DNA of 64,000 bases from assembly GCF_014199535.1 (NCBI RefSeq), contig NZ_JACHNV010000001.1, positions 744,001 to 808,000 of the forward strand, in the 5' to 3' direction. The notes under the pieces are model-generated. The model had not been told where the DNA came from. It was given only the letters and a program-made list of their open reading frames with translations, and did not search any database. Positions 4,853 to 55,346 of the stretch are shown in pieces (position 1 is the stretch's first letter; every line of letters starts with the position of its first letter). Position numbers and translations under genes: made by a program. The stretch comes from Hymenobacter latericoloratus. Its GTDB lineage: Bacteria; Bacteroidota; Bacteroidia; Cytophagales; Hymenobacteraceae.

Positions 4853-5036
4853 AAACCGGGGAATGAAATGAAGCCATTAAAAGTACTAGAAGTGGCCGGA
4901 ATGACAACCTGGTGCAACCCCGCCCGGGGCCGGCTGTCTTTCACCTGCTTACCTGATAGCACGAGCCTTTTTGCCCGGAAAGTTGGATATTTACGATTCT
5001 CTCGTTTCCGGACCCCCGCCAACCCAGCAGCAACCT

Positions 5037-5600
5037 ATGGAGGCATTTGCGTACACTGACATCAACGCCCCGCTAGTCGAGCGGTGCCGCTTAGGCGACC
5101 GGCGCGCCCAGGCCGAAATCTACAAGCGCTACTCCAAGGCCATGTTCAACGCCTCCCTGCGCATTACCGGCGACTTTGCCGAGGCCGAGGACGTGTTGCA
5201 GGAGTCGTTTCTGAGCGCCTTCCGGGAGCTGCACAGCTACAAAGGCGACTCGTCTTTCGGCTCCTGGCTGAAGCGCATCGTTATCAACAAAAGCATTAAC
5301 TGCCTGCGCAACCGGCGCCTGCAGCTGGTGCCCCTGGCCGACCAGCACGACGGCGCCGCCCCCGACTCCGACGACCATGGCCCCGATATGGAGGAGCTGG
5401 GCTGGCGTGCCGATGTAGTGCGCCGCTGCGTGCAGGAGCTGCCCGATGGCTACCGGGTAGTCCTCTCGCTGTACCTGCTGGAGGGCTACGACCACGCCGA
5501 AATTGCCGGTATTCTCAACATCACGGAATCCACTTCGAAGTCGCAGTACAGCCGGGCCCGGAAAAAGCTCCTGGAGCTGGCCCGCCAGCACGGCCTGTAA
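5037..5600 (+). CDS. ECF-type RNA polymerase sigma factor
   Basis: 187 residues from the ATG at 5037; a TTG 66 bases upstream would add a Pro-rich tail not typical of the family. Region sigma-2 is visible in AEDVLQESFLSAFREL with the downstream SFGSWLKRIVINKSINCLR. Region sigma-4 is visible in LPDGYRVVLSLYLLEGYDHAEIAGIL followed by SKSQYSRARKKL, the helix-turn-helix that contacts the -35 region. It directs RNA polymerase to a small regulon, probably including its own operon. A single-TM protein (5717) and a DUF4097-type protein (6482) follow on the same strand, an arrangement frequent for Bacteroidota ECF/anti-sigma systems. Confidence 0.92.
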   Translation: MEAFAYTDINAPLVERCRLGDRRAQAEIYKRYSKAMFNASLRITGDFAEAEDVLQESFLSAFRELHSYKGDSSFGSWLKRIVINKSINCLRNRRLQLVPLADQHDGAAPDSDDHGPDMEELGWRADVVRRCVQELPDGYRVVLSLYLLEGYDHAEIAGILNITESTSKSQYSRARKKLLELARQHGL

Positions 5601-5716
5601 AACGCGCGACCTGATTTACCCTCCCTCCCCGACGACGACCTGCTGCCCCCGTTGCGCTGGCCCACCCAACCCCGACCCGCGCGCCGCTCCTGGCAGCCTG
5701 CCCATTACTACCGCAC

Positions 5717-6478
5717 ATGAACGAGAAGAAAACCGGACTGGAAGCCTTTGTTGAGCGCCACCGCGCCGACTTCGATGTGTTCGAGCCGCGCCCAACTCTC
5801 TGGGACGACCTTGAACTGGAGCTGACTGCGCCCAAAGCCGCTGAAGAGGAAGCTCCTCTGCGCATACTCCCCCTGCACATTACCCCCGAAAATACGCCGG
5901 TGGCACCGGCAGTAGCGGCGGCCCAGCCGTTGGCTACCGCTGATTCTGCTGTGCGCTCCGCCCGCCCCTATGGCATTGCTGCCGCCGTAGCGGCTTTGTT
6001 GATGGTTGGTACCTGGTTCTGGCAGCACCAGTCGGACGCTACCCGCTGGACGCGCACGGAGCAGGTAGCCGTAACCGGGCCGGCGGCCCCTGAGGAGGTA
6101 GGGCAGCCCCTGCTGGCCGCTACCCCGGCCGCGGCCGGCCCGGAGCAGCGCCTGGCCGGCGCCGTGCAGCGCATGGAGGCCTACTATGCCACCCAGATTG
6201 CCGAGCGCCAGCGGGAACTGCAAGCCCTGGACAAAGAAACCCCTGCCACGGCCCCACGGTCGGACTGGCAGCAGGAGCTGCGCGGCCTAGACTCCACGTA
6301 TCAGCAGCTCCGGACGGAGCTGTACCGCAATCCGGAGCCTGAGGTAGTGCTGGATGCCATGGACCGCAACCTGCAGATCCGGCTGGATTTGCTGAACCAG
6401 CAGCTGCGCACCCGCGAGCAGATCAAGGATTATCACTCCCAACCTTACATGGTGGCCGAGGGTCGCCGCAAGCCCTAA
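5717..6478 (+). CDS. Single-pass membrane protein, probable anti-sigma factor of the upstream ECF sigma
   Basis: 253 residues. The N-terminal cytosolic part (about 1-80) begins LEAFVERHRADFDVFEPRPTLWDDLE, a pattern seen in Bacteroidota proteins downstream of ECF sigma genes. One transmembrane helix lies at about 86-102 (IAAAVAALLMVGTWFW). The rest is an extracytoplasmic, largely helical, charged domain (about 140-250) with repeated Q/E/R/L heptad-like stretches. No zinc-binding HxxxCxxC motif is present, so it is not a ZAS-type anti-sigma factor. Gene position is the main reason for the anti-sigma proposal. The ATG of the next gene follows this stop by only 3 bases, so the two are translationally close. 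Confidence 0.65.
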   Translation: MNEKKTGLEAFVERHRADFDVFEPRPTLWDDLELELTAPKAAEEEAPLRILPLHITPENTPVAPAVAAAQPLATADSAVRSARPYGIAAAVAALLMVGTWFWQHQSDATRWTRTEQVAVTGPAAPEEVGQPLLAATPAAAGPEQRLAGAVQRMEAYYATQIAERQRELQALDKETPATAPRSDWQQELRGLDSTYQQLRTELYRNPEPEVVLDAMDRNLQIRLDLLNQQLRTREQIKDYHSQPYMVAEGRRKP

Positions 6479-6481
6479 GCC

Positions 6482-7720
6482 ATGCCCCGCACGTTGCTTT
6501 CTGTTGGAGGGGTAGGGCCGCTGCTGCTGGCCGCCGTACTGGTGGCCGGCGTCCGCACTGCGGGCTACGGCCAGCAAACGGTAGCCCCCGCTGAGGCAGA
6601 GCTGCACTATTATCAGCCCACAGCCGCCCCCCTGGCGCCGGGGAGCGGCTCGGCGCCGGATGCGCGCCAGGGCGGTGGGCAAGGCCCGCAGGAAGAAGCG
6701 CAGCCGACGCCCGCCGTGGAAAAAGTGCGCAAAATCAGCCGCACGTTTCCGGCCAGCGCCACCAAGCTCTACTCCCTCGATACCCGCTACGGCCGGGTGC
6801 AGGTAAACGTGTGGAACCGGGCCGAGATTCGCACCGACGTGGACATTATCACCCGCGCCGAAACCGAGGAAAAGGCCCAGCAGCTCCAGGACATGATTCA
6901 GGTGCAGCTACAGGACCAGGACCCCGCCACCGGGGGCATTGTGGCCCGCTCGCGCTTTGGCGCCATGCCCCGCGAATGCTGGAGCCGCACCAAGCTTTAC
7001 GAAGTAAACTATACCGTGTGGGTGCCCAAAAATACGCCCCTGGCCCTGCACAACACCTTCGGCGAAATCAGCCTGACCAGCGACCTGACCGGGGCTACCG
7101 AGCTGGCCATTGAGTACGGCACCCTGCGCACGGCCCGGCTGGAAGGCCCCCGCAACTCGGTGCGCGTGTGCAATGCCCAGTGCACCGTGCCCTACGCCGG
7201 CCGCGCCACCGTGGATGCCTCCTACTCCAAGCTGCGCCTGACGGAAGGTGGCACCGTGGAGCTGCGCAACAACTATTCGGATATTGACATCGGCTCGGTG
7301 CAGGACCTGACGGTGCACAGCAAGTACGGCGACGTGGCCCTGGGCACCGTGCGCAACCTGCGGGGCAGCTCCGGCTACTCCCGTTTCAGCATCGATAAGC
7401 TCAGCAACCAGCTGGACATGAAGCTGCAGTACTGCCCCACCTTCGAGGTGCGCAGCACCGGCAAAAATTTCCGGCAGATCAACGTGGATGGCGGCTACAG
7501 CACCATTCTGCTTAATTTCCCCGACGGGGCCGGCTTTAACTTCGATGTAAATACCGAGCACGGCAAGCTGCTGGTCGATAAGCGCCTGGTGAAGGTAGAT
7601 TCAGAGGAAAGCAGCCCTTCTTCCAGCGACATGCAGGGTACTTTCGGGGCCGTGCAGACGCGTAACCTTGGCAATGTGAACATCAAAGTGCGCTACGGCA
7701 ACGTGAGCTTTAAACGGTAA
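6482..7720 (+). CDS. Exported DUF4097-like beta-repeat protein
   Basis: 412 residues. An N-terminal hydrophobic signal (about 1-30, ending near GYGQQ) is followed by a low-complexity Pro/Gly/Gln linker. From about residue 80 comes a long run of short beta-strands with repeating patterns such as FPASATKLYSLDTRYGRVQVNVW, SYSKLRLTEGGTVELRNNYSDIDIG and VHSKYGDVALGTV. These resemble the right-handed beta-solenoid of DUF4097/DUF2807-type putative adhesins. It is the third gene of the ECF operon, likely a regulated envelope target or ligand-sensing output. A strong terminator follows at 7744. Its function is unknown. Confidence 0.75.
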   Translation: MPRTLLSVGGVGPLLLAAVLVAGVRTAGYGQQTVAPAEAELHYYQPTAAPLAPGSGSAPDARQGGGQGPQEEAQPTPAVEKVRKISRTFPASATKLYSLDTRYGRVQVNVWNRAEIRTDVDIITRAETEEKAQQLQDMIQVQLQDQDPATGGIVARSRFGAMPRECWSRTKLYEVNYTVWVPKNTPLALHNTFGEISLTSDLTGATELAIEYGTLRTARLEGPRNSVRVCNAQCTVPYAGRATVDASYSKLRLTEGGTVELRNNYSDIDIGSVQDLTVHSKYGDVALGTVRNLRGSSGYSRFSIDKLSNQLDMKLQYCPTFEVRSTGKNFRQINVDGGYSTILLNFPDGAGFNFDVNTEHGKLLVDKRLVKVDSEESSPSSSDMQGTFGAVQTRNLGNVNIKVRYGNVSFKR

Positions 7721-7806: not shown

Positions 7807-8352
7807 ATGCGCTTCTTTTTGCTCGCGGCGCTGCTGGCTTTTCAGGCCACGGCAGCCGCTGCCCAATCCTTGCCTACTGGTATGCCCCCTGCTCCTGGTT
7901 TCGCGCCCTCGTCCTCGCTCCGCACGTACGCCCTCCGCCTGAAACCGGGCCAGGACGTGCGCCGCGAGCTGCTGGCTTTTGCCGAGCAGCACCAGCTGCG
8001 GGCGGCGGCCGTGCTTACCTGCGTTGGCAGTCTGACTACGGCTACCCTACGGCTGGCCAATCAGGAGGGGCCTACCCGGTACCAGGGGCACTTCGAAATT
8101 GTATCCCTGGTAGGTACCCTCTCCGTCAATGGCAGCCATCTGCACCTGGCCATTGCCGATTCCACCGGCCGCACCCTGGGCGGGCATTTGCTAGATGGCA
8201 ACGTTATTTATACCACGGCCGAGCTGGTTATCGGGGAAATGCCGGAGTTAGACTTTCGGCGGGAACCCGACGCTACCTATGGGTATCAGGAGCTGGTGGT
8301 TTATCCGGGTAAGAATAAAAAGTCTAAGTCAATGGCGAAAAAACACAAATAA
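7807..8352 (+). CDS. Exported PPC/DUF296-domain protein
   Basis: 181 residues with a signal peptide (MRFFLLAALLAFQATAAAAQ, cleavage near residue 20). Residues about 35-160 match the plant-and-prokaryote-conserved (PPC/DUF296) fold: LRLKPGQDVRRELLAFAEQH, VLTCVGSLTTATLRLA, GHFEIVSLVGTLS, a metal-site-like HLHLAIAD and GGHLLDGNVIYTTAELVIGE. The C-terminus is a basic tail (KNKKSKSMAKKHK). PPC proteins known from bacteria are normally cytosolic trimers and plant members bind DNA, so the signal peptide is noteworthy. It starts 87 bp after the previous stop and has a terminator on its 5' side, so it is its own unit. Molecular function is unknown. Confidence 0.82.
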   Translation: MRFFLLAALLAFQATAAAAQSLPTGMPPAPGFAPSSSLRTYALRLKPGQDVRRELLAFAEQHQLRAAAVLTCVGSLTTATLRLANQEGPTRYQGHFEIVSLVGTLSVNGSHLHLAIADSTGRTLGGHLLDGNVIYTTAELVIGEMPELDFRREPDATYGYQELVVYPGKNKKSKSMAKKHK

Positions 8353-8504
8353 AAAGTGAGTAAGCGGGTATCCGGCTAAAGATGAGCTGGAAATAGTGCT
8401 GAATGCTTTTCGGCCCGCCGGAAAGCGGTTATACTTGTAGAACTATCTGCTAGTCACCGCAGAGTGCGGAAGGGCTGGTGAAGTATTTTAGTTGTTACCA
8501 TTTG

Positions 8505-11500
8505 ATGCGAATTCTACCGTATAGCACCCTGCTAGGCCTGTGTGCCGGGGTGGCTACCCCCCTGTTGGGCCAGCAGCAGCCCGCCACCCTGGTTACCTCC
8601 CGACAAGCACTATCCGAGGGCATTGCCCTGCACGACAAAGGCGACTATGCCGGGGCCATCCGCCAGTATCTGCTGGTGCCTTCCTCTGACTCCGGCTACG
8701 TGCAGGTGCAGGGCGAGCTGGCATTGTCTTACTCCGAAAACAAGCAGTATAAGGAAGCCATTGAGGTTAGCCAGCGGGCCATTGCCCTGCACCTGCACGA
8801 CGCGCAGCCCTATTACGTTCTGGCCGAGGCGGAGGAGGCCCTGCACCACGAGGAAGCTACCTTCCGGGCGTATGCCGAGGGTCTGAAGCGGTTTCCGTAC
8901 AGCCAGCGGCTGTGGTTTAACCAGGGCGTGAGCTATGACTTGGTGAAGCAGCGGCCCGCCGCCCTGGCCAGTTGGCAGCGCAGCCTGGAACTAGCGCCCC
9001 ACCACCCCAACACGCATTACCAGCTAGCCTGGCTGGCCCTGGAGCAGGGCCAGACGGCCCGCGCCCTTATCAGCCTGCTCACGTTCCTGGCCCTCAGCCC
9101 CGACGGCGAAAACAGCCAGCAGGCCCTGATTCTGGCCGAGCGCATTGCCACCAACGTGCAGGAGGTGGAGGAAAAGGACCGCGAGAAACCCTTCGTGCCC
9201 AATGAGGCCTTTCAGGAGCTGGACCTGCTGATTACCTCAAAAGTTGCCCTGCAGAAAGGCTACCAGTCGAAGGTGAAATTCGATGCAGCCATTGTCAAGC
9301 AGGCGCAGTTGCTGGTGGAGAAGTTTCCGGCTGCCGGCCCCCACGAGCAGGACCTGTGGCTGCGCGCCTACGGCCCCATGGTGGAGGCCCTGCGCCGCAA
9401 CGACAACCTCACGTCCTTCACCTACCTCATCCTCCTATCGGCCGAGGATAAAAAGGCTGCCCAATGGGTGAAAAGCAACAAAAGCAAGGTGGAGCGCATG
9501 AGCCAGGAAGTAGCCGGGGCCCTGTTGCAGCTGCGCGCTCAGCAGCCTGTAGCCGACGCGGCTACCCCCACCGCGCGGCGCAGCGCCTGGTTTCATGAAG
9601 GCAAGCTGCAGGGCATCGGGGCGGGCGAGGTGAAGGACGGCAATCTAACCGGACTGCACGGCCCCTGGCTGATTATTGACCAGGCCGGAGCCATTTCCGA
9701 GGCCGGCAGCTTTACGGAGGCCGGCAAGCGCACTGGCCTCTGGCGCGAGTACCACCCCAACGGCCGGGTGGCCAAGGAAATGAACTACGACACCGAAGGC
9801 CGCTACGAGGGCCGCTACGTGGAGTACTTCGACAATGGGGCCCTTTCGGTGGAAGGTACCTACAAAGCCGGCCAGATTGTGGGGCAGGCCAAGCTCTACC
9901 ACTACTGCGGCGAAGTCCGCGAGGTGCGCCCTTACCAGAATAACGACGTTACGGGCGAGGTAATAAGCTACTACCCCAACGGCAAGCTCTACCGCAAAGC
10001 CATCTACCGGGCCGACAAGCGGGAAGGCGCCTCGGCCGACTTCTACCCCGACGGCACCCCGGAAGTAACCGCCACCTACGCCGCCGATAAGCGCCAGGGG
10101 CCTTTCCAGGTGTTCTACCCCGATAAAACCCTGGAGCGCAAGGGGGGCTACGACCAGGACGAGCTCCACGGCGACTATCAGGATTTCCACCCCAACGGCA
10201 AGCTGGCCTCCACCGGGCGCTACGAGCACGGTAAGCAGGTAGGCCGCTGGCAGGTGTTCTACGCTTCGGGCAAGCCCAGCGAGGAAAGAAACTATGACGC
10301 TGCCACCGGCGAGCTGCACGGCGTGTTCAAAGACTACGACGGGCAGGGCCAGCTGATTACAGAGCTGCTCTACGACCAGGGCCGCGTCACGAAAGTCACC
10401 TCCGTGGATGCCAATGGCAAAGCCCTGGCCCAGACAGCGGTGGCCAAGAAGGGCAAAACCGAAGTGAAAGGATTGCACCTGAACGGGGCTACCCGTTTCA
10501 CGGGCACCTACGTGGATGGCCGCCAGAACGGGGAGTGGCGCTGGTTTCGGCGCGATGGGAGCCTGAGCCTGGTGCGCCGCTACCAGGCCGGCCAGCAGCA
10601 AGGCGCCGAGGAAATCTACGCCAGCACGGGCCGCGTGCAGCAGCGCACGCACTACCAGGATGGGCAGCTGCAGGGCCTCTACGAGCACTTTTACGACCAC
10701 GGGCAATTGCAGCGCACCGGCTTTTACCAGGCCGGCCAGCAGCAAGGCACCTGGCGGCAGTACTACCCCACCGGGCAGCTCAGCGAAGAGTACAACCTAC
10801 TCGACAACGACCTGCACGGCTGGACGCGCAGCTACACCCCCGGCGGCCACATTACGGAGGAGCGGTGGATGCAGTACGACCGGCCCCTGGTGGTTACTTC
10901 CTTTGACTCCACCGGTCGTGTGCTGGACCGCTTCGACGTTCAGCCCACTACCAAATCCCTGACCTTGCACTATGCCAATGGCAAGCCCCGCTCGGAAAGC
11001 GGCTGGCTCTGCTACGCCTACCAGGGCCCCGACAAATGGCTTTACCCCAACGGCAAGCCTGAGCTGACGGTGGAGCTGGACCGCGGCAACCGCCAGGGAC
11101 CGTACCGCACGTACCATCCGCTCACGGGCAACCTCGCGGAGGAAGGCGCTTACCGCCAAGGTAAGCGCGAGGGTGAGTGGAAAGGCTACTACGCCTCGGG
11201 AGCCCTGCGTTTCAAGGGCAGCTACCGCACCGGTGAGCAGGAGGGAGAGTGGCAGTACTACACGGAGAAAGGAGGCACGGAAATTCTGCTGAACTATGCC
11301 AATGGGGAGCTGGACGGCCCCTGTCGCACCTATAACCTGCAGGGTGAGCTGCTGCTGGAAAAAGTGTACGCCAACGGCGAGCTGCTGGGCTTCCGCGGCC
11401 CCGGTCCCGATGGTAAGCCTGCCGGGGAGCTGAAACCGGCCGGTCCCATCTCGACTACCTTCGCCAACGGCAAGCCCGCCGCCACCGAAACCTACCAGAA

Positions 11501-11816
11501 AGGCCGCCTGACGGGCACCCGCACCTACTACTACAGCTCGGGCCAGGTATTCCGCCGCTCCCAGAACACGCCCGACGGGCAGCTGACGGGCCTGCTGACT
11601 ACCTACTACCCCAACGGCAAACCGTGGGAGGAGGAAAACTATGCCTTCGACCAGCTGCACGGCCGCAGCCGCTACTACCGCCCCGATGGCACCCTGGAGC
11701 GCGAGGAAACCTACCGCTGCGGCGAAAAAGCCGGCCCTACCGTGTATTACGACGCCCAAGGCAAGCCTCTGCGCACCGATGTGTACTGGAATACCCGTGT
11801 GTATGAAACCCGCTAA
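8505..11816 (+). CDS. Giant exported TPR + YwqK/MORN_2-repeat protein
   Basis: 1103 residues from the ATG at 8505, which gives a good signal peptide (MRILPYSTLLGLCAGVATPLLG); a GTG 27 bases upstream is the alternative. Residues about 35-230 are TPR-like (for example GDYAGAIRQYLLVPSSD, QYKEAIEVSQRAIALHLHD, LPNTHYQ-type helices). From about residue 370 to the end there are many MORN_2/YwqK-like repeats of about 23 residues with the pattern Y-x-N/P-G-K followed by G-x-W/Y (PNGKLYRKAIYRADKREG, PNGKLASTGRYEHGKQVG, PTGQLSEEYNLLDNDLHG). Such repeats are annotated as YwqK antitoxin repeats, but here they form an envelope scaffold with no toxin nearby. The next gene starts 14 bp before this stop codon, so the two are coupled. 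Confidence 0.85.
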   Translation: MRILPYSTLLGLCAGVATPLLGQQQPATLVTSRQALSEGIALHDKGDYAGAIRQYLLVPSSDSGYVQVQGELALSYSENKQYKEAIEVSQRAIALHLHDAQPYYVLAEAEEALHHEEATFRAYAEGLKRFPYSQRLWFNQGVSYDLVKQRPAALASWQRSLELAPHHPNTHYQLAWLALEQGQTARALISLLTFLALSPDGENSQQALILAERIATNVQEVEEKDREKPFVPNEAFQELDLLITSKVALQKGYQSKVKFDAAIVKQAQLLVEKFPAAGPHEQDLWLRAYGPMVEALRRNDNLTSFTYLILLSAEDKKAAQWVKSNKSKVERMSQEVAGALLQLRAQQPVADAATPTARRSAWFHEGKLQGIGAGEVKDGNLTGLHGPWLIIDQAGAISEAGSFTEAGKRTGLWREYHPNGRVAKEMNYDTEGRYEGRYVEYFDNGALSVEGTYKAGQIVGQAKLYHYCGEVREVRPYQNNDVTGEVISYYPNGKLYRKAIYRADKREGASADFYPDGTPEVTATYAADKRQGPFQVFYPDKTLERKGGYDQDELHGDYQDFHPNGKLASTGRYEHGKQVGRWQVFYASGKPSEERNYDAATGELHGVFKDYDGQGQLITELLYDQGRVTKVTSVDANGKALAQTAVAKKGKTEVKGLHLNGATRFTGTYVDGRQNGEWRWFRRDGSLSLVRRYQAGQQQGAEEIYASTGRVQQRTHYQDGQLQGLYEHFYDHGQLQRTGFYQAGQQQGTWRQYYPTGQLSEEYNLLDNDLHGWTRSYTPGGHITEERWMQYDRPLVVTSFDSTGRVLDRFDVQPTTKSLTLHYANGKPRSESGWLCYAYQGPDKWLYPNGKPELTVELDRGNRQGPYRTYHPLTGNLAEEGAYRQGKREGEWKGYYASGALRFKGSYRTGEQEGEWQYYTEKGGTEILLNYANGELDGPCRTYNLQGELLLEKVYANGELLGFRGPGPDGKPAGELKPAGPISTTFANGKPAATETYQKGRLTGTRTYYYSSGQVFRRSQNTPDGQLTGLLTTYYPNGKPWEEENYAFDQLHGRSRYYRPDGTLEREETYRCGEKAGPTVYYDAQGKPLRTDVYWNTRVYETR

Positions 11817-13758
11817 CCTCTACCGGCAGTTGGGCGGGCTGGCCCTGGCCCTGCTGCTGGCCCTGAGCGCCCAGGCCCAGCAGCCCTTGCAGTTGCTGCA
11901 GCAGCTCAAGCAGCAGTACCCCACCGAGCCGGCCGTGTACCTCGACTACCGCCAGGACGTGACGGTGGAAGTAAAGGGCGACTCGGTGCAGGTGCTGGCC
12001 CGCCACCGCTACGACATGCTGCACCTAGGCAGCCAGTCGGCCATGTACGCGCCGGATCAGGTGTACACTTCCCACTTCAACCGCCTGCAGAAGCTGGAGG
12101 CCCGCACCCTGCTACCCGCCACCAACGACTACAAGCCCATCAAAGTCACCGAGTTTAAGGACAAGTTTGACATTCGGCCCGGCGTGTTCTTTGATGACGC
12201 CCGGATTGTCAGCTTCACCTACCCGGCCGTGGCCCCCGGCGCGCGCACCGTCTGCGACTACACCATCCGGCAGCCCGACGCGCGGTTCGTATCGCCCTTC
12301 TACTTCGCCAGCTACGTGCCCATTCGCCACGCCGAGCTGGTCATTACCGCCCCGCGCGGGGTGCGCATCAACGCCAAGCAGTTCCACATTCCGGAGGGCC
12401 TGGTAACGTACACCCGCCAGGAAAAGGGCAGCAACGTCATCTACCGCTGGACGGCCGAAAACCTGCCGGCCGCGCCCCGCGAGGCAGATGCGCCCGAGGC
12501 TGCCTACTACCTGCCTCACCTGGCTTACTTCCTGGAAGAAGCTACCGTAAACGGCCAGCCCCGCGCCCTGCTGGGCGGCGTCAAGGAGTTGTACAGTCTG
12601 TACTCGGGCTTCGTTAGTGGCCTTGATAAGCAGGAGAACCCCGCCCTGCGCCGGGTCGTCGATTCGCTGACGGCCGGGGCGCGCACCGAGCCCGAGCGGG
12701 TGGCGCGCATCTACTACTGGGTGCAGGACCACGTACGCTACATTGCCTTCGAAAACGGCCTGCGCGGCTTTATTCCGCACGATGCGGGCCGGGTGTACGC
12801 CAACCGCTACGGCGACTGTAAGGACATGGCCAACCTGCTGCACGAGATGCTGCGCATGACCGGCGCCAAAGCCTACCGCACCTGGATTGGCACCCGCGAC
12901 CTACCCTACCACTACGCCGAGCTGGCTACGCCCGGCGTGGACAACCACATGATTACTACCTACGAGCCCCGCCCCGGCGAGTACGTGTTCCTCGACGCCA
13001 CCAGCAAGTACACGCCCTACGGCATGCCCTCCTGGATGATTCAGGGCAAGGATGCGCTGCTGGCGCTGGATGGCACTACCTGCAAAGTGGTTAGTGTGCC
13101 CGTAATGGAGCGCCAGCGCAACCGCACCGTGGATAGCTCGGTGGTAGTGCTGGATGGCACGACGGGTTTGCGCGGCTCCGGCCGCCTGGCCCTGGGCGGC
13201 TACACCAAAGTGCGCCAGGCCTATGCTCTCGATGGGCTGAACCAGGCCGAGGAAGCCAAGCTGGTGAAAGGCCTGCTGGAGCGGGGCAACAACAAGTTTT
13301 TCGTGGATAAATACGCCGTGCAGCACCTCGACGCCCGCGACCAGCCCCTGGTAGTGGATTACCAGTACCGCCTGCAGGACTACGTGCAGCGCCTCGATGA
13401 CGAGGTGTACGTGAACCTAAACCTGGACCAGACCTACGCCACCGACCGCCTCGACCCGTCCAAGCGCCGCCTGGCCCGCACCAACGACTACTACCACACC
13501 ACCCGCACCCGCACCGAGTTTGAGGTGCCCACCGGCTACGAGGTAACCTACCTGCCCGCCAGCACCCAGGGCCAGGCCGCGGTGCTGGGCTTCTCTATTC
13601 GCTACGAGCGCCAGGGCAACAAAATCATTCAGGAGAAGGAGCTGTACGTGAACTACCTGCTGCTGGAGCCCGCGCAGTTCGGGCAGTGGAACGGGGTAGT
13701 GGACAAGCTCAACGCTGCCTACCGCGACGCCATCATTCTCAAGCGCAAAAAAGCCTAG
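11803..13758 (+). CDS. DUF3857 / transglutaminase-like exported protein with an intact catalytic triad
   Basis: 651 residues. The ATG at 11803 overlaps the previous stop by 14 bp and opens a signal peptide (LGGLALALLLALSAQAQ). Residues about 50-250 form a DUF3857-type beta domain. The transglutaminase core follows with Cys339 in NRYGDCKDMANLLHEML, His382 in VDNHMITTY and Asp398 in VFLDATS, a complete Cys-His-Asp triad. A C-terminal beta-rich DUF3858-like part ends with a YRDAIILKRKK motif. The substrate is unknown; family members are envelope proteins that may cross-link or cleave amide bonds. It lies between the YwqK-repeat protein and a Cys-less paralogue, suggesting a three-protein envelope assembly. 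Confidence 0.87.
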   Translation: MKPANLYRQLGGLALALLLALSAQAQQPLQLLQQLKQQYPTEPAVYLDYRQDVTVEVKGDSVQVLARHRYDMLHLGSQSAMYAPDQVYTSHFNRLQKLEARTLLPATNDYKPIKVTEFKDKFDIRPGVFFDDARIVSFTYPAVAPGARTVCDYTIRQPDARFVSPFYFASYVPIRHAELVITAPRGVRINAKQFHIPEGLVTYTRQEKGSNVIYRWTAENLPAAPREADAPEAAYYLPHLAYFLEEATVNGQPRALLGGVKELYSLYSGFVSGLDKQENPALRRVVDSLTAGARTEPERVARIYYWVQDHVRYIAFENGLRGFIPHDAGRVYANRYGDCKDMANLLHEMLRMTGAKAYRTWIGTRDLPYHYAELATPGVDNHMITTYEPRPGEYVFLDATSKYTPYGMPSWMIQGKDALLALDGTTCKVVSVPVMERQRNRTVDSSVVVLDGTTGLRGSGRLALGGYTKVRQAYALDGLNQAEEAKLVKGLLERGNNKFFVDKYAVQHLDARDQPLVVDYQYRLQDYVQRLDDEVYVNLNLDQTYATDRLDPSKRRLARTNDYYHTTRTRTEFEVPTGYEVTYLPASTQGQAAVLGFSIRYERQGNKIIQEKELYVNYLLLEPAQFGQWNGVVDKLNAAYRDAIILKRKKA

Positions 13759-13854
13759 CCTTCCGGCGCGCTGCAGGCCCGCGCCTACGGCGGCTTACCT
13801 ACCTAACCTTCGCTTCATCAGCCTGCTTACCGGGCGTTTATCCTCACGTATTTC

Positions 13855-15843
13855 GTGTCTTTACCTACTCTTCGCGGCTGCGCGGGCCTGATGGCCGGGG
13901 CCCTACTCACTCTGCCGGCCGGCGTGCGCGCCCAAACGGCTGCGCCCGGCCTGCCCGCCACGCTCAGCTACGCCTCTTACAACTGGGAAGCCCGCCGCAA
14001 ACCCATGGCCGTTACCGCCGCTGAGGGCCAGCAGCCCGCCGTGGTACTGCGCGATTTTCGGGTGGAGGAATTTGCCGCCGATGCCCGCGACCAGCTGCAC
14101 CTCTACTCCCTCGACCACCGCATTGTGCGCGTAAATTCCTCCGACGGTATTGAGCGCTTCAACAAAATTTACCTGCCCGTGCAGGATGGCGGCCGCATCG
14201 TGTCCCTGAAGGCCCGCACCATCAGCCCCCGCGGCGAGATTGTGGAGGTGCCCGAAGGCAACATGAAGGAGCTGAAGGACGAGGACGGCGGCCGTGGCTA
14301 CAAGGTGTTTGCGGTGGAAGGCGTGGAGAAGGGCAGCGAGATTGAGTACCTGTTCACGCGGGAGCGGCCCATCAGCTACTTCGGGCGCATTTACGTGCAG
14401 GAAGAAGTGCCGGTGCGCGAAATGCAGGTGGAGCTGATTTCGCCCGAGGCCCTGACCTTTGAAATGCGCCGCTACCCCGGCGGCCTCGTCCGCGACACGG
14501 TGCTGCAGCAGAAACACGTTATCCGTCTGCTGGGGAAGGATGTGCCGGCCCTGCGCGAGGAAGGATTCGCCCAGGCCCAGGCCAACCGCCAGCGCCTGGA
14601 GTACAAACTGGCTTACAGCGCCGCCCGCGGGCAGCAGCGCCTGTTCACCTGGGCCGAGGCCAGCCAGTTTATCTACGGCCGCAATTATAAGCTGGACAAG
14701 GATGAGCTGAAAGCCCTGGATAAGTTGGTAAAGCAGATGAATCTGCCCGCTCCGGTTTCGGTGGCCGCCCTCGAAAGCTACGTGAAGACCAACTTCCGCG
14801 TAGCCCCCGAGGCCGACCTGAGCCTGACCAGCATCATCACCTCGCGCACGGCTTCCGAGCCCGGCTTTACGCGTCTGTTCGCGGCCCTGCTCACGCGCTT
14901 CAACATCGCCCACGAGCTGGTGCTGACCTCCGACCGCACCGAAGTAGCCTTCGATGAGGCGTTTGACACCTGGAACTCGCTGGATCATTCGGTTTTCTAC
15001 TTTCCGGCCACCAAGCAGTGGCTGGCCCCCAGCCGCCCCGATTACCGCCTGCCTCTGATTCCGGCGGAGTGGACCGCCAACAAGGGCCTGTTTATTCGTG
15101 GCGTGAAGCTGGGTACCACCGAAACCGCCGTGGGCCGCATCGGCGACATTCCGACCCTGACGGCCGACCAGAGCCCCAGCGACCTGGACATTGCCGTGCA
15201 GTTCGCGCCGGGCCTCGACAAGAGCATTGTTACGATCAAGGAAACCTACGGGGGCTACCACGCCCAGGAGATTCAGCCGTTCTACCCCCTGATTCCGGAC
15301 GATAAGCGCCCCGAAGTGCTGCAGGGCCTAGTGAAGTCAAGCGTACCGGATGCTACTTTTCAGAAAGTAACGGTTACCAACGCCGAGGTAGGCCTGAACC
15401 CGCTGGAAAAGCCCTTCATTGTAGATGCTACCGTGGAATCGGTGGCCCTGCTGGACCGGGCGGGCCCCAAGTACCTGTTCAAAGTGGGCACGCTGCTGGG
15501 GCCGCAGTCAGAGCTGTACCAGAGCGAGGAGCGGCAGTTTGATGTGGAGAACGGTTTCAACCGCCGCTACAACCGTACCATCACGTTTGAGGTGCCGGCC
15601 GGCTACCAGGTGCGCAACCTGCAGGATCTGAACTTCAACGTGGCAGCCGGCCCCACGGCAGCCGGCCCCGAGTTCCTGTTCAAATCAAGCTACCAGCAGC
15701 AGGGCCAGAAAGTAACCGTCACCATTCAGGAGTACTACCGCCAGATCCGGTGGCCCAAGCAGGACTTCGAGGCCTTCCGGGGGGTAGTAAATGCCGCCGC
15801 CAACTTCAACAAAGTGGTGCTGGTGCTGGAAAAGAAAGGGTAA
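13855..15843 (+). CDS. DUF3857 / degenerate transglutaminase-like exported protein
   Basis: 662 residues from the GTG at 13855, which gives a short signal peptide (CAGLMAGALLTLPAGVRAQ). It has the same architecture as the previous gene: an N-terminal DUF3857 beta domain, a transglutaminase-like core at about 300-390 and a beta-rich C-terminus ending FNKVVLVLEKKG. In the core, the segment where GDCKDMA would lie reads SRTASEPGFTRLFAALL, so the nucleophilic Cys is absent. The FLDAT position reads WLAPSRPDY, so the Asp is missing too; a His remains in LDHSVFYF. It is probably non-catalytic, perhaps a binding partner of the active paralogue. It lies 96 bp downstream of it and a terminator follows. 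Confidence 0.83.
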   Translation: MSLPTLRGCAGLMAGALLTLPAGVRAQTAAPGLPATLSYASYNWEARRKPMAVTAAEGQQPAVVLRDFRVEEFAADARDQLHLYSLDHRIVRVNSSDGIERFNKIYLPVQDGGRIVSLKARTISPRGEIVEVPEGNMKELKDEDGGRGYKVFAVEGVEKGSEIEYLFTRERPISYFGRIYVQEEVPVREMQVELISPEALTFEMRRYPGGLVRDTVLQQKHVIRLLGKDVPALREEGFAQAQANRQRLEYKLAYSAARGQQRLFTWAEASQFIYGRNYKLDKDELKALDKLVKQMNLPAPVSVAALESYVKTNFRVAPEADLSLTSIITSRTASEPGFTRLFAALLTRFNIAHELVLTSDRTEVAFDEAFDTWNSLDHSVFYFPATKQWLAPSRPDYRLPLIPAEWTANKGLFIRGVKLGTTETAVGRIGDIPTLTADQSPSDLDIAVQFAPGLDKSIVTIKETYGGYHAQEIQPFYPLIPDDKRPEVLQGLVKSSVPDATFQKVTVTNAEVGLNPLEKPFIVDATVESVALLDRAGPKYLFKVGTLLGPQSELYQSEERQFDVENGFNRRYNRTITFEVPAGYQVRNLQDLNFNVAAGPTAAGPEFLFKSSYQQQGQKVTVTIQEYYRQIRWPKQDFEAFRGVVNAAANFNKVVLVLEKKG

Positions 15844-15910: not shown

Positions 15911-15941
15911 CTTGTTTTCTGCTGAATCCCTATCTTCCGGT

Positions 15942-16457
15942 ATGAGCCAGGCCCTTGTCCCAACCACTTCTTCGGCGGCCGCCCGCATGGAGAAATTCCG
16001 CCGCGACATCAGTAATCCGCTGAAGCTGCGCTTATTCATGCTGCGGCGTCTGCCTATGGCCTACCTGGCCGGGCTGCGCGTAGCCGCCCTCAGGCCCGAA
16101 GCGGCTACCGTAACGGTACGCTATAAATACCTGACGCAAAACCCTTTCCGTAGCATCTACTTTGCCTGCCTGAGCATGGCGGCCGAAATGGCTAGCGGCC
16201 TGCTGGCCATGATGCACGTACAAAGCGGCCCGCCGGTTTCCATGTTGGTCGTAAGTCTGGAAGCCGATTTTACCAAGAAGGCCGTCGGGCTCATTCGCTT
16301 CACCAGTCAGGATGGCGCCGCCATTGGCCAGGCCATAGCCGAAAGCCGCGCCACCGGCGAAGGCCGCACCGTAGTGTGCACCAGCACCGGCCTGGACCAA
16401 GCCGGCGACGTAGTAGCTACCTTCCGCATCACCTGGTCGTTTCGGGCGAAGAGGTGA
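15942..16457 (+). CDS. DUF4442 hotdog-fold thioesterase-like protein
   Basis: 171 residues from the ATG at 15942; a TTG at 15912 inside the preceding terminator tail is unlikely. Recognisable elements are NPLKLRLFMLRRLPMAYLAGLRV, VRYKYLTQNPFRSIYFACLSMAAEMASGL and the strands VVSLEADFTKKAVGLIRFTSQDG and TGLDQAGDVVATFRITWSF. The order strand - long helix - four strands fits a hotdog fold of the DUF4442 (YiiD-like, PaaI-related) group, which probably hydrolyses acyl-CoA thioesters. A TATCTTCC box lies four bases before the ATG, implying a very short leader. Its 3' side is an unusual inverted-repeat element. Confidence 0.8.
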   Translation: MSQALVPTTSSAAARMEKFRRDISNPLKLRLFMLRRLPMAYLAGLRVAALRPEAATVTVRYKYLTQNPFRSIYFACLSMAAEMASGLLAMMHVQSGPPVSMLVVSLEADFTKKAVGLIRFTSQDGAAIGQAIAESRATGEGRTVVCTSTGLDQAGDVVATFRITWSFRAKR

Positions 16458-16593
16458 GGAGGTGAAAAGTGAATGGTGAATGGTGACAGGTGATAGGGGG
16501 AAAATGAGAAACGAACGGCCTGGTAGGCTTACTCAGGAAGCTTACCTGTCACCTGTCACTATTCACCTTCCACCTTTCACCTTCTCACCCCTC
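16451..16593. repeat. Long imperfect inverted repeat of GGTGAA-type words filling a convergent intergenic gap
   Basis: The left arm (about 16451-16495) is a degenerate run of short words such as GGTGAA, GTGAATGGTGAATGG and TGACAGGTGA. The right arm (about 16543-16593) is its imperfect reverse complement (ACCTGTCACCTGTCAC, TATTCACC, TTTCACC). About 45 nonrepetitive bases separate them. It occupies the whole gap between the convergent DUF4442 and cyclase genes and overlaps both stop codons. It could fold as a bidirectional terminator or be a dispersed noncoding repeat. No coding potential. Confidence 0.7.
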
Positions 16594-18147
16594 CCGCAGG
16601 CTTTCTTTGGTGATGACATCCACGAGACCGTCTTCGCTGACCACAATGGCCAGGCAGGGGTAGGGTGAGCTTTCCACGTAGCGGATGGCGGAATTGTAGC
16701 GGGCGCCGCGGGTGCTGGTGCCGTGCCCGGAAGCTTTGCCGTCGAGAATCACGCCGATAGAATAGCAGTAGCTTTCCGGGTCCAGCAGCACGGCGCCATC
16801 AATGGCTGTAACCAGGCGCGTGATGAGGGGAGTAAGCGGCACCGGTTCAATAAGGGTGCATTGCAACTTGAGGCGGTCGGCTTCGGCCAAAGCTTCGGTG
16901 GTAATAACCAGCAGGGTGCCGTGCTTTTGGCGGCTGGCTTCCACTACTACATCCCAGAGCCGCTCTACCTTGGCCGCGTCGGTGAGCTGGAAGGTGTGCT
17001 TCAGGTCGCGGCGGAAGCGGGCCCGGTGCAGGCGGGTGCGCGGCAGACTGGGCAGGCCGTAGTGGGCCCGCATAAGAACCTGGTTGCCGTGCTGAAACTC
17101 CCAGGCGTAGTGATTCACGAAGCTGATGACAAACAAATCCTCGCGGCTGGCGTCGTAGGAGCCCACCTGTTTGCCCAGGGCGTACACGTTTTCGCCGTCG
17201 GCCAGCAGGCTCACCTCGGGCGTTGTCATTTCCAGCAGCTTACGCACGGCCCGGTAATCGGTGAGGGGGGTAGGGCAGGTGAGGGCAAAAATTTCCGTGA
17301 GGTTGGGGTGGCCCCGCCGGGCCAGCAGCACTTTGCCTACCCCCTCGGCACCCTCGTAGCGCAGGGAGGAAATGGTATTGCAGGTGGCAAACAGCTTGGC
17401 CGCGGCCGGGTTGGTGCCCAGGTCCTGGGCCGGCGTATCCATGAACAGCTTGCCCGCCGAACGGATAATCTCGTCGGTGTCGCGGGGGCGCACCAGTAGG
17501 CCGGAGCCGGGCTCGGGCTCCGTCAGCGACTTAAGGCATTCCTCGTGAAAGCGCAGGACCGCCGACATCAGCAGGGAGTGGGACAGGGGCCGCCCGTCGG
17601 TATAGTAGCGGTTTTTCTGGAGGGTAGGATACGCCTGCATGGCCTTGCGGCTAAGGCGCAGCACCGGCACCACCGAGTGCTGGCTGATAGCCACCGGGGC
17701 GCCCGCAAAGTACACGTGCCGCGAGCCGGTGGCCACTTCCTCCAGCACTTCCTGCACGGCCTGGCGCAGGGCAATGGCGGTTTTTTTGCGCTCAAACATT
17801 TCCTCGCTCATCAGCTCCCGGTCGGGCGAGTTCCAGGGGTGCAGGTACTGGTAGTAGCGGCCACGGGCCTGCGCCTCCCTGAATGCTTCCGTATCGAGGC
17901 CGCAATCTACGGGCTCCAGGCATACGGGCACCGCCTCGGGTACCGTATCCGCATCGGTGGGCAAAGCCAGCAGCAGCACGTAAGGAGCCAGGTCTTCATC
18001 GAGGGCATCGAAAATGCCCTGGGCCACCGCCTGAGCGGCCTGCCGAAACCGGGTCTGATAGGGCCAGATAGAGTAGCTGGCTGGCAGGGGTAGGGGGGTG
18101 CCAAAGGCAACGGGTGGGGCGGAAACGAGCGGCAGAGGGGAAAGCAT
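16585..18147 (-). CDS. Diadenylate-cyclase (DisA_N/DAC) domain protein with a large N-terminal region
   Basis: 520 residues, cytosolic, no TM helix. The C-terminal part (about 405-515) is DAC-like: D450-G451-A452 in TAIDGAVLLD, then HGTSTRGARYNSA (R480, R483) and LAIVVSEDGLVDVI, resembling the DGA, GTRHR and VVSEE motifs of enzymes that make c-di-AMP from two ATP. The RHR triplet is replaced by RGAR. The N-terminal 400 residues may be one of the sensor regions found fused to DAC domains in Bacteroidota, but I could not identify it by motif. No c-di-AMP phosphodiesterase or receptor is nearby. A possible TACTTTTC promoter box lies at 18229-18236 upstream. Confidence 0.82.
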   Translation of the reverse strand: MLSPLPLVSAPPVAFGTPLPLPASYSIWPYQTRFRQAAQAVAQGIFDALDEDLAPYVLLLALPTDADTVPEAVPVCLEPVDCGLDTEAFREAQARGRYYQYLHPWNSPDRELMSEEMFERKKTAIALRQAVQEVLEEVATGSRHVYFAGAPVAISQHSVVPVLRLSRKAMQAYPTLQKNRYYTDGRPLSHSLLMSAVLRFHEECLKSLTEPEPGSGLLVRPRDTDEIIRSAGKLFMDTPAQDLGTNPAAAKLFATCNTISSLRYEGAEGVGKVLLARRGHPNLTEIFALTCPTPLTDYRAVRKLLEMTTPEVSLLADGENVYALGKQVGSYDASREDLFVISFVNHYAWEFQHGNQVLMRAHYGLPSLPRTRLHRARFRRDLKHTFQLTDAAKVERLWDVVVEASRQKHGTLLVITTEALAEADRLKLQCTLIEPVPLTPLITRLVTAIDGAVLLDPESYCYSIGVILDGKASGHGTSTRGARYNSAIRYVESSPYPCLAIVVSEDGLVDVITKESLREG

Positions 18148-52959: not shown

Positions 52960-53541
52960 TTACTCTCGCCGACGGATGTAGTATAGAACAGCCTGCTCGG
53001 CGCTAAGAAAAGGGCGCAGTGGCCAAGGGCGCGGACGGGGCGGTAGGTGTTGGAAGCCCGTTGCTTCCGCCACGGCGCAGCTGCGGGGGTTATTGGCCCG
53101 GCACCGGATGAGCAGGCGGGAGGCATTCAGCGTGTTGAAGCCAAAGCCAACTACGGCCCCCAGCGCCTCGCGGGCGTAGCCCTGGCCCTCGGCGGTTTCG
53201 GCCAGGTAGTAGCCAATTTCCAGGGTCACGGGCGCCGACCAGTTAGGCTTCAGGCTGATGTCGCCGAGGTAGCGGCCAGTGGCCGTGTCCCAGATGCCCA
53301 GTACGTACAGGCGGCCCGAAACCCAATCCTGCCGAAACTGAGCCAGCACCTGCACGGCGTCAGCCGGGACCCTTACCGCACCCTCCCGCGCCGGAAAGGA
53401 AGGCTGGAGGCGAAGCCGGTTCAAGTCAATCAGCTGAAAGAAGTCGGCAGCATCGGAGGGCAGGTAGGGACGCAGGGTAAGCCGCGCCGACAGGATGGGC
53501 GCACCGGACGGGGAAGGCAGGGGCGGGGCAGCATCGTACAT
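52960..53541 (-). CDS. GNAT-family N-acetyltransferase (RimJ/RimL-like)
   Basis: 193 residues. LSARLTLRPYLPSDAADFFQLI, the acetyl-CoA-binding EIGYYLAETAEGQGYAREALGAVVGFGFN and the following RLLIRCRANNPRSCAVAEATGFQ are typical of the RimJ/RimL subgroup acetylating N-termini of proteins. It is convergent with the barrel gene (stop 52919) with only 40 bp between them and no clear hairpin there. The substrate is not known. Confidence 0.9.
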   Translation of the reverse strand: MYDAAPPLPSPSGAPILSARLTLRPYLPSDAADFFQLIDLNRLRLQPSFPAREGAVRVPADAVQVLAQFRQDWVSGRLYVLGIWDTATGRYLGDISLKPNWSAPVTLEIGYYLAETAEGQGYAREALGAVVGFGFNTLNASRLLIRCRANNPRSCAVAEATGFQHLPPRPRPWPLRPFLSAEQAVLYYIRRRE

Positions 53542-53732
53542 GATTTGGAGAATACGGCTGCAGGGAGTACGGCGGATGCGGTGACAATGGCCAAATCGGG
53601 GTCTGGGAGAAGCACGCGCAGAAACCCCGCCGCCCGTCAGCCGTTGAAAAGCACCATCTGGCTACTAGCGAAGCACTTGCCGGAGCTTAGATACCTGCTT
53701 TTATCCGTTCAACCTTCTTATCTACTCTCCTC

Positions 53733-54617
53733 ATGTCAGGCAGACTCACAAATAAAGTAGCCATTGTAACCGGCGGCGGCGCGGGCATTGGCGAGGCCAT
53801 CAGCAAGAAATTCGCCCGCGAAGGGGCCGCCGTGGTCGTGGTGGGCCTCGATAGTGACCCGGTACGGGAGGTGGTCGATGAAATTCTGGCTGAAGGCGGC
53901 CGGGCCATCGGCTACCTCGGCGACATCTCCCGCGAAGAAACCGCTAAAGCTTGCGTAAAAGCGGCTGTGGAGGAGTTCGGCAAGCTTGATATCCTGATCA
54001 ACAACGCCGGCGCTTTCCCTACCGTCTCCACCATCGACAAGTACCCCACGGAGGCCTTCGAGTACATGATCAAGAACAACATCTACTCGAACTTCATGAT
54101 GACGCGGGCTGCCATTCCGCACCTGCAGAAAAGCAAGGGTAATATTGTATCGGCCGGGTCGGAAGCCGGGCACATGGGCGAGCCGCAGAACACGCCGTAT
54201 GGCGGTACTAAAGGCTTCGTGCATGCCTTTCAGCGCGGGGTAGCCGTGGAGCAGGCCAAGTTTGGCGTGCGCTCCAATATTGTGGGCCCTGGCCCGATCG
54301 ACACGGCCTGGACCCACAAAGAAACGGGTCCTATGAACGCCAAAATGGAGAAGCTGACGGTGCAAGGCGTACCGCTGGGGCGGCGCGGCACTCCTGAAGA
54401 AGTAGCCAACGTGTACCTGTTCCTGGCTTCCGATGAGGCCAGCTATGTGACCGGTGCTACCTACTACGTGGATGGCGGCGTGACCATTTCCAAAGGCCCG
54501 CACGGCGACGAAGTGCCCAGCCACCTCAAGCAGGAACCTACCGGCGAGTTGAACCTGAAACACTCCAAAGACGGCAATACCAAAGTGCGCAAGGAAGCCC
54601 TGGCCTCCATGTCATGA
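53733..54617 (+). CDS. SDR-family oxidoreductase
   Basis: 294 residues. The NAD(P) motif VAIVTGGGAGIGEAI, NNAGAFPTV, the catalytic Ser in IVSAGSEAG and Tyr-x3-Lys in YGGTKGFVHAF, then RSNIVGPGPIDTAWT and a C-terminal GGRRGTPEEVANVYLFLASDEASYVTG-like motif and YVDGG identify a classical short-chain dehydrogenase of the FabG-like type. It has a C-terminal extension of about 45 residues (GPHGDEVPSHLKQEPTG onward) not found in FabG. The substrate is unknown. It is followed by a nested inverted-repeat region (54616-54820). Confidence 0.92.
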   Translation: MSGRLTNKVAIVTGGGAGIGEAISKKFAREGAAVVVVGLDSDPVREVVDEILAEGGRAIGYLGDISREETAKACVKAAVEEFGKLDILINNAGAFPTVSTIDKYPTEAFEYMIKNNIYSNFMMTRAAIPHLQKSKGNIVSAGSEAGHMGEPQNTPYGGTKGFVHAFQRGVAVEQAKFGVRSNIVGPGPIDTAWTHKETGPMNAKMEKLTVQGVPLGRRGTPEEVANVYLFLASDEASYVTGATYYVDGGVTISKGPHGDEVPSHLKQEPTGELNLKHSKDGNTKVRKEALASMS

Positions 54618-54820
54618 ATTGCGGATTGACGCGGATTTCACGGATTGTTGTTCGTGAAGTTAACTAGCCGTTCGTGTTAGCCTATAATATAAAAGGCAGA
54701 AACAAAGAAGCCGCTCCTACTTGGAGCGGCTTCTTTATTTTACAGGCTTCACGAATTTATGTGGGGTAGCAGGTTAAGCACACGACCGACATCCGCGAAA
54801 TCCTACCAATCCGCGATTCT
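54616..54820. repeat. Nested inverted repeats in a convergent gap, outer arms with GCGGATT words
   Basis: The outer arms 54616-54645 and 54791-54820 are imperfect reverse complements containing the words GCGGATT/CGCGGATT. A middle pair TTCGTGAAG (54651-54659) / CTTCACGAA (54747-54755) is nested inside, and the terminator 54704-54736 is nested inside that. The whole gap between the convergent SDR gene and the 54819 gene is thus a three-level palindrome. Functional meaning unknown. Confidence 0.62.
54704..54736. terminator. 14-bp terminator hairpin
   Basis: AAAGAAGCCGCTCC and its exact complement flank a 5-base loop, followed by ATTTTA. It is the innermost level of the nested palindrome and probably serves both the SDR gene and the convergent small gene. 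Confidence 0.88.
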
Positions 54821-55259
54821 ATTTTTGCAGGGCGGCACCTACGCCGGAGCGCGACTGAGGCGGGCTGCCCAGGGCGTGCTGGTTGCGCATCACGTTTACC
54901 TGACGGGCGGCTTCGTTGAAGTACTCCAGCCGGCGAATCAGCATTTCTTTGGTGAGGACGCGGCCTTCCGGCGTGCGCATTACCGATTTCTTGTCAGAGA
55001 GAATCTGCTGCATGAGTGCCTCCGTGCCGGCTTCATTCTGGCGGAATTGCGCGTAGAACTCGCGCAAACGGCCTAAAACGTCGTCGGTAGTCAGGCGGAA
55101 CTGGCCGCCGGCCTGGTTCAGCACCTCGCTCAGCACGTACACTTCCAAGGGCAGTGAAACGCCCAAAGCCGTGGGCTGGATGTTGAGGCCCGCTTCTAGG
55201 CCGCTGAGAATGATTTCGAGGTTGCGCTCAAATTGCTGGTAGTAACCGGCTGCTTCCAC
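54819..55259 (-). CDS. Conserved small helical protein, function unknown
   Basis: 146 residues from the GTG at 55259 (MEAAGYYQQFERNLEIILSGLEAGLNIQPTALG). The sequence is mainly helical with an amphipathic pattern (LPLEVYVLSEVLNQAGGQFRLTTDDVLGRLREFYAQFRQ, LMQQILSDKKSVMRTPEGRVLTKEMLIRRLEYFNEAARQ). No signal peptide or TM helix. I do not recognise a domain. It is located downstream (same strand) of the MoxR ATPase gene, 87 bp apart, so it may belong to the same transcript. Confidence 0.62.
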   Translation of the reverse strand: MEAAGYYQQFERNLEIILSGLEAGLNIQPTALGVSLPLEVYVLSEVLNQAGGQFRLTTDDVLGRLREFYAQFRQNEAGTEALMQQILSDKKSVMRTPEGRVLTKEMLIRRLEYFNEAARQVNVMRNQHALGSPPQSRSGVGAALQK

Positions 55260-55346
55260 TATTGAAAAGTTGAGTGTTGAGGTGTGGGTGTTGAACTCTA
55301 GGAGCGACAGCGCTGATGGGCTACGCTTTCCTGTATTGCAGCACCG

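Follow-up and report, generated by a model that had tools for sequence, protein, structure and literature searches.

Three adjacent, co-directional genes in the genome of Hymenobacter latericoloratus (5.04 Mb) raise the question of why a gene for an apparently intact transglutaminase-like enzyme is accompanied by one for a relative that lacks the catalytic residues. The genes, referred to here as A, B and C, lie in a stretch of 64,000 nucleotides (the window; contig NZ_JACHNV010000001.1, positions 744,001 to 808,000), and all three open reading frames (ORFs) were verified on its forward strand. A first-pass annotation, made from the letters alone, had described A as a 1103-residue TPR/MORN_2-repeat protein, B as a DUF3857 protein with a full Cys-His-Asp triad and C as a paralogue without the Cys and the Asp, and had proposed that scaffold, enzyme and pseudo-enzyme form an undescribed exported assembly. 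The computational analysis described here suggests that the trio is a hitherto undescribed machine of the cell envelope and not neighbours by chance; its constant core is the pair of B and C, to which A is accessory. The reading favoured here, to which we give an even chance, is that A, B and C form a conserved operon whose products assemble into an exported complex of a thiol enzyme (B), its non-catalytic partner (C) and a client, adaptor or scaffold (A).

All component families are known (DUF3857, TPR, MORN_2 and the transglutaminase core), and so are dead transglutaminases. No description of the three-gene unit, or of a rule by which B goes with a dead partner, was found in the open-access literature (subscription papers and preprints lay outside its scope). 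Open-access work on inactive or pseudo-enzyme transglutaminase-like proteins contained no description of the trio, and the titles retrieved for MORN_2 in Bacteroidetes, which concerned planarians, Fusobacterium and the microbiota, did not point to it either. In open-access full text, DUF3857 turned up in a single paper, where the gene is merely named as a neighbour of lolA (PMC6341742).

The active site of B and its loss in C

The first description of A and B was confirmed at the level of reading frames, Pfam families and, for B, the triad residues. B exceeds the cut-off of PF12969 (DUF3857; 52.9 bits versus 24.6) and that of PF01841 (Transglut_core; 36.9 bits versus 23), and its Cys-His-Asp triad is present in all 71 proteins compared (Table 1). 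C also exceeds the DUF3857 cut-off (43.0 bits); Transglut_core gave no Pfam match to the C protein of the window at E <= 0.1, and the triad that characterizes PF01841 is missing from it. One C orthologue (locus L152) reaches 24.5 bits for PF01841, barely above the cut-off. A scan of NCBIfam assigned no family to B or C.

Relatives were taken from the best 80 of 479 stretches matching C (E <= 1e-3) in a named genome collection; the 479 matches are possibly not all orthologues of C, and the 80 loci, which are its closest relatives, constitute a biased sample that overlaps the samples of 59 and 296 genomes used below. Of the proteins encoded at these loci, 71 B and 78 C passed a length filter and underlie the residue counts. 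With near-duplicates and broken sequences excluded, 20 of 26 sequences remained in alignment A1, 20 of 27 in A2 and 16 of 17 in A3; conserved columns were taken only from sequences longer than 600 residues (23 of 27 B rows and 23 of 26 C rows).

Alignment of a B profile with a C profile (20 proteins each; 99.6% probability, 613 columns, 17% identity) pairs Cys339 of B with Pro336 of C. In the predicted structures, helix 339–352 of B matches 335–348 of C, so that the Cys site corresponds to either Glu335 or Pro336. The loss of the Cys at this place and of the Asp at Ala391 bears out what had first been noted for C. The C protein of the window retains His378, yet this His is not conserved across the C family. 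Restoration of catalytic residues at shifted positions had been named beforehand as a result that would speak against a pseudo-enzyme; the model of C and its 78 relatives reveal no conserved substitute Cys, no column being Cys in half or more of the 78 proteins and a lone Cys at column 333 occurring in one of them. A shifted or substitute active site was accordingly rejected at the sequence level, none being found among the conserved columns or the Cys columns. C has instead a conserved set of its own, consisting of Arg361 (76/78), Phe366 (70/78), Asp367 (77/78) and Phe370 (76/78).

The AlphaFold2 models of B and C (pLDDT 88.1 and 89.7) have an overall fold in common with PDB entry 3kd4 (BDI_1141 from Parabacteroides distasonis, annotated as a 'putative protease'), which is the best among the matches listed for both: Z 21.1, a root-mean-square deviation of 4.1 Å and 483 aligned residues for B, and Z 19.9, 4.1 Å and 469 aligned residues for C. 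This DUF3857-type protein reads YGTPLEI where the B profile has YGDCKDM, and the reference structure is therefore Cys-less as well. Because the triad is missing from C yet the fold is common to B, C is, as judged from alignments and models, a pseudo-enzyme of the transglutaminase fold.

After 3kd4, the core of B is closest among the matches listed to LapG (4fgo; Z 11.6, 133 aligned, 3.5 Å), followed by PNGase (Z 11.4); the transglutaminases TG2, TG3 and factor XIII (Z ~9–10 over ~157 residues) and erythrocyte protein 4.2 (7uzs; Z 9.7) also have a core fold like that of B. LapG, PNGase, the transglutaminases and protein 4.2 are not among the matches listed for C, an absence which in these structure-match lists (VIA-align) is no evidence. 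LapG is a periplasmic bacterial thiol enzyme with a single small domain that works with LapD and LapA; proteases of its type have a calcium site and cleave a retained adhesin. Protein 4.2 is a dead transglutaminase that serves as a structural protein, and is thus a precedent for C; in contrast to the animal transglutaminases, B and C have a DUF3857 N-terminal domain and a bacterial export setting, and the dead and active forms are a co-inherited gene pair. Searched against the PDB by sequence, the C profile gave no match; single-sequence searches gave one weak match each, and a match to an aldolase was regarded as chance. The N-terminal domain of the C model (residues 58–261) resembles oligosaccharyltransferase subunits (8agb_E and 6ezn_A) and the N-terminal domain of M1 aminopeptidases (Z ~9–12).

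A, B and C are all under purifying selection. When the window is compared with five relatives, the ratio of nonsynonymous to synonymous substitution rates (dN/dS) is 0.18–0.30 for C and 0.14–0.29 for B; four other pairs give 0.035–0.17 and 0.026–0.18, respectively, all values being rough as some dS are near 1. Together with open frames in most orthologues, these ratios rule out that C is a decaying pseudogene. Frame breaks were found in B of G003, in both B and C of G010 and G022, and in C of G028. In G003 and G010 the matches to adjacent genes are split too, pointing to sequencing errors. A is missing as well from G022 and G028, where genuine decay is therefore possible.

The term paralogue does not hold in the sense of a recent duplicate. 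Searching the genome itself with B retrieved three other DUF3857 genes and not C (E <= 1e-5), and C retrieved only itself; with the two matching at the level of profiles, C as a recent tandem duplicate of B was ruled out. A second DUF3857 cluster in the same genome (L062:4967-11270, minus strand; contig C2, ~52966-59269) shows the same active/dead pattern, with three DUF3857 genes encoding one GDCK protein and two Cys-less proteins; the proteins of this cluster are 24–25% identical to B where they match. By eye, the Asp position of its GDCK protein reads Glu.

Inheritance and gene order

In 59 related genomes, C (E <= 1e-5) was found in 25 and B (E <= 1e-70) in exactly the same 25; neither gene reached these levels in the other 34. 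Matches to B of any strength occur in 44 genomes, the 19 additional, weaker ones being other DUF3857-type genes. A (E <= 1e-100, with up to 12 candidates scored per genome) was found in 17, all of them within the 25, and in these 17 the three genes stand together. Among these relatives, B and C are kept or lost jointly, and a close A was not seen without them.

In a phylum sample of 296 genomes (up to four candidates scored per genome), 21 match the C profile (11 at E <= 1e-80) and 107 match that of B (18 at E <= 1e-100), and the 18 genomes with a strong B make up 18 of the 21 with the C profile. Seven of the 18 have A–B–C and three B–C without A, while in six B is followed by a diverged C', with no A in the 17–18 kb fetched; B and C lie apart in one (G046), and the last (G345) has C' on a different contig from B, which stands at a contig end. 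The seven C' proteins have 719–741 residues; in the six that were aligned, Cys is lacking where B has its motif, a part in which the alignment is uncertain.

Conservation of the gene order across Bacteroidota had been set beforehand as a test by which the proposed system could be refuted, and the order was found well beyond the genus: A, B and C are adjacent in 25 of the 38 loci from other Bacteroidota (A being split or cut in three). The remaining 13 consist of five with B–C and no A, four with B–C at contig edges, three with C and no nearby B, and one with C at a contig edge. The closest named relatives of C are Hymenobacter species, and 33 of the 42 loci from this genus have the three genes adjacent. 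In two others A–B is separated from C by 2.7–3.0 kb, in one 8.2 kb separate B and C at a contig edge, four have B–C without A, one has B–C at a contig edge and one a lone C at a contig edge. A was scored as present where it is fragmented (L077, in Hymenobacter), split (L114) or cut by a contig end (L110 and L117). Each of the 2.7–3.0 kb inserts holds one long, exported-looking gene (L090:6595-8517, minus strand; L094:5965-8889, plus strand). Of the loci where B does not accompany C, four were checked further: three of the genomes carry B elsewhere (E <= 1e-230; one with an internal stop), and in the fourth, a fragmented draft, only weak matches and, on a small contig, a 74-residue end of B were found.

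Within the genus, one and the same site either carries the block or lacks it. B and C are missing from 18 of the 37 genomes in the genus sample, and in 17 of these both flanking genes (6482–7720 and 15912–16457 of the window) were found on one contig; their spacing is 0.35–1.8 kb in 16 of the 17, versus 8.2 kb with the block. The exception is G029, with flanks 9.0 kb apart; here the upstream flank is separated from the PCC gene by ~8.5 kb of other sequence (G029:C1:3827944-3836977; L167). A search with tblastn found neither A, B nor C in nine of these sites that were fetched, and in eight of these the PCC-domain gene adjoins a DUF4442 gene. In one outgroup group, A alone is absent between the same neighbours, leaving 235 and 222 bp before B (L116 and L130), and it is present in L109, L124 and L132 of the same group. 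Missing as it is between unchanged neighbours, A behaves as an add-on to B–C.

Gene A and the surroundings of the block

A belongs to the MORN_2 family (PF07661; 162.7 bits versus a cut-off of 29.6) and scores 43.9 bits for TPR_2; the outer borders given for its TPR region (Table 1) are those of TPR_Slam and TPR_9 stretches, both below their cut-offs. In the alignment of 16 A sequences, glycines are invariant from G372 to G1086, many at a spacing of 24 residues. The signal-like N-termini of A, B and C were judged by eye from hydrophobicity. Cargo of type 9 secretion is recognized by a C-terminal sorting-domain profile in NCBIfam, and no such domain was found among the NCBIfam matches of the three proteins (E <= 0.1).

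Table 1. Features of the A–B–C block, in window coordinates.
Feature	Position	Strand	Description
Promoter-like element TATACTTGTAGAACTATC	8430..8447	+	~75 bp upstream of gene A
Gene A	8505..11816	+	ATG start; 1103 residues; TPR and MORN_2 repeats; predicted to be exported
TPR region of A	8610..9125	+	~residues 36–207; TPR_2, TPR_1 and TPR_17 above cut-offs
MORN_2 repeat region of A	9618..11762	+	~residues 372–1086, ~715 residues
Gene B	11803..13758	+	ATG start; 651 residues; DUF3857 and transglutaminase core with intact triad; predicted to be exported
Catalytic Cys339 codon of B	12817..12819	+	Cys in 71/71 B proteins
Catalytic His382 codon of B	12946..12948	+	His in 71/71 B proteins
Catalytic Asp398 codon of B	12994..12996	+	Asp in 71/71 B proteins
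Gene C	13855..15843	+	GTG start; 662 residues; putative pseudo-transglutaminase of the B fold; predicted to be exported
Glu335-Pro336 codons of C	14857..14862	+	Site of the lost Cys; Cys in 0/78 in either column
His378 codon of C	14986..14988	+	Position of the catalytic His; His 23/78, Asn 25, Glu 13, Asp 13
Ala391 codon of C	15025..15027	+	Site of the lost Asp; Ala 63/78, Asp 1/78

Orthologues of A are intact in other genera, with stop-to-stop ORFs of 1078–1191 residues at the 56 loci where A exceeds 1000 residues. A nevertheless changes faster, its mean p-distance among 33 Hymenobacter loci being 0.51, versus 0.34 for B and 0.39 for C. A near-fixed length across distant genera despite this faster change would fit a rod of defined size acting as a client, adaptor or scaffold. 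Between L041 and L044, dN is 0.284 for A, 0.015 for B and 0.026 for C, and dS is 1.31, 0.45 and 0.58, respectively; the divergence of A spans its full length and suggests replacement of A or recombination.

The repeats of A are of the MORN_2/YwqK type; A further has a TPR half and an N-terminus resembling a signal peptide, and enzyme genes are its fixed neighbours. A YwqK antitoxin is a small cytoplasmic MORN_2 protein encoded beside a toxin gene. That A is such an antitoxin was rejected on account of its 1103 residues, its signal-like N-terminus, its TPR half and the lack of a toxin family nearby, none being found in B, C or the scanned neighbours with Pfam and NCBIfam. In the parts of the literature concerned, YwqK features in work on Bacillus subtilis LXG toxins and toxin–antitoxin systems (PMC8321402; PMC6562991).

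The overlap on which the earlier claim of translational coupling rested was read directly from the sequence: the ATG of B sits within the last codons of A, giving an overlap of 14 bp. At 15 further loci, the A/B overlap is 14 bp in eight and 20 bp in two, and the remaining five have gaps of 10–416 bp, the largest at a locus with a broken B. Given this recurrence, A and B may plausibly be translationally coupled in this genome and its close relatives. The spacing between B and C is 96 bp. The stretch TATACTTGTAGAACTATC upstream of A presumably represents the Bacteroidota −7 box (consensus TAnnTTTG), and a stretch resembling it precedes A in all ten aligned sequences, which were hand-picked from the 17 with A and are mostly close relatives.

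The PCC-domain protein encoded just before the block (window 7807–8352, plus strand; 114.6 bits) has a signal-like N-terminus, and its gene lies upstream of A in some loci of the genus and downstream of C in others. Further upstream (4971–7720, plus strand), the block is preceded in the genus by a gene for a sigma-70 family factor, similar to those of the extracytoplasmic function (ECF) type, and then by two genes without significant Pfam matches, both of which are also present where the block is absent. Beyond C, a gene on the opposite strand (16585–18147, minus strand) encodes a DACNG–DACNH–DAC protein (Pfam 223, 101 and 40 bits) that scores 448.7 bits for the NCBIfam anti-phage model NF053872, under its cut-off of 630; of 18 loci fetched from the genus, 17 have this gene close to the block.

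Readings of the B–C pair

Since C was found wherever a close B occurs, with an equal build and different chemistry, the economical reading is that the two form a pair. The product of A–B–C would be an exported, probably periplasmic, protein complex, in which B would act as a papain/transglutaminase-fold thiol enzyme (a protease, amidase or transamidase) on envelope proteins or peptides. C, a presumably long-established pseudo-enzyme with the same three-domain build, would be the obligatory non-catalytic partner of B and would stabilize it, gate its cleft, target it or supply a substrate-binding site. A, as a rod of TPR and MORN_2 repeats, would be a dedicated but optional client, adaptor or scaffold of the pair. 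Of the assembly first proposed, the inventory of scaffold, enzyme, pseudo-enzyme and predicted export stands, as does its being undescribed within the open-access literature; that the three proteins form one physical assembly goes further, and we infer it together with their physical binding, the periplasmic location, the catalytic activity of B and the role of A.

Several observations weigh against this reading. A is missing from nine of the 80 loci with enough upstream sequence, so the three-part machine is not universal, and of the trio first taken as a unit it is B and C that persist as the constant core, with A as an accessory. Of the 25 genomes with B and C, six have the two adjacent without A (G015, G022, G028, G039, G051 and G058), and in two (G046 and G056) B and C are unlinked. 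In three genomes of the phylum sample (G091, G306 and G315) the C profile matches weakly (E 1e-11 to 1e-20) and there is no strong B; these matches may be other DUF3857 genes. A constant fourth partner was sought by clustering the flanking ORFs of the 38 non-Hymenobacter loci, in which families occur in at most nine loci, mostly of one syntenic group; no fourth gene recurs outside that group, and the genomic context therefore names no pathway. Correlations between distance matrices over 55 loci (B–C 0.979, A–C 0.977 and A–B 0.964) are expected from shared descent and, without a control gene, are not support.

B and C could also be independent envelope proteins that are merely co-transcribed, with C binding a ligand of its own through R361–F366–D367–F370 and never touching B. 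The conservation of these residues in C, the separate encoding of B and C in G046 and G056 and an identity between them of only 17% speak for such independence, which is nevertheless doubtful, as 25 of the 59 genomes have both B and C and 34 have neither, with the unlinked cases included, a pattern that would be hard to account for without a shared task. The chance neighbourhood is a very unlikely explanation. Ordinary vertical descent without functional linkage would agree with the largely syntenic region from the sigma factor to TonB within the genus and with the common flanking genes of 8–9 outgroup loci; however, neighbours change between groups, the other neighbours in the window were not found beside B–C outside the genus and, within it, A, B and C are present or absent together, bar three genomes with B–C and no A.

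Two further explanations concern the chemistry of B. The structural matches of its core to TG2, TG3 and factor XIII, and the richness of A in Gln and Lys (78 and 56 residues), would suit a transglutaminase that cross-links a Gln-rich A to itself or to the cell wall, with C as an exosite. This is improbable: LapG, a protease, and PNGase, an amidase, match the core of B equally or slightly better, the few invariant Gln and Lys residues of A (Q266, Q268, K273 and Q347 in 16 sequences) all lie outside the repeats, and A is absent at loci that retain B and C. It is also unlikely that B is a LapG-like periplasmic protease trimming a surface protein, with C as a regulatory decoy and A as the retained or anchored substrate. 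Among the matches listed, LapG ranks next to 3kd4 in structural similarity to the core of B, but PNGase and others lie within one Z unit of it and are in effect tied, and B did not match the Pfam family of LapG at E <= 0.1.

The reading of B and C as an enzyme and its non-catalytic partner may also be extended, more tentatively, to the family as a whole. DUF3857 proteins of Bacteroidota would then be obligate active/dead pairs, with C or C' as the second subunit that is required by a transamidase or protease of the periplasm acting on a dedicated repeat rod, and the second DUF3857 cluster of this genome would follow the same principle. DUF3857 is nearly absent from the open-access literature, yet 479 stretches in one collection encode relatives of C (E <= 1e-3). 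If B and C act together, species of the same genus with and without the block at one site would provide a natural on/off test, and the pair could give DUF3857 a function and provide an example, in bacteria, of an enzyme that binds a dead relative. If the reading as obligate pairs is true, it would represent a bacterial envelope machine without a described counterpart.

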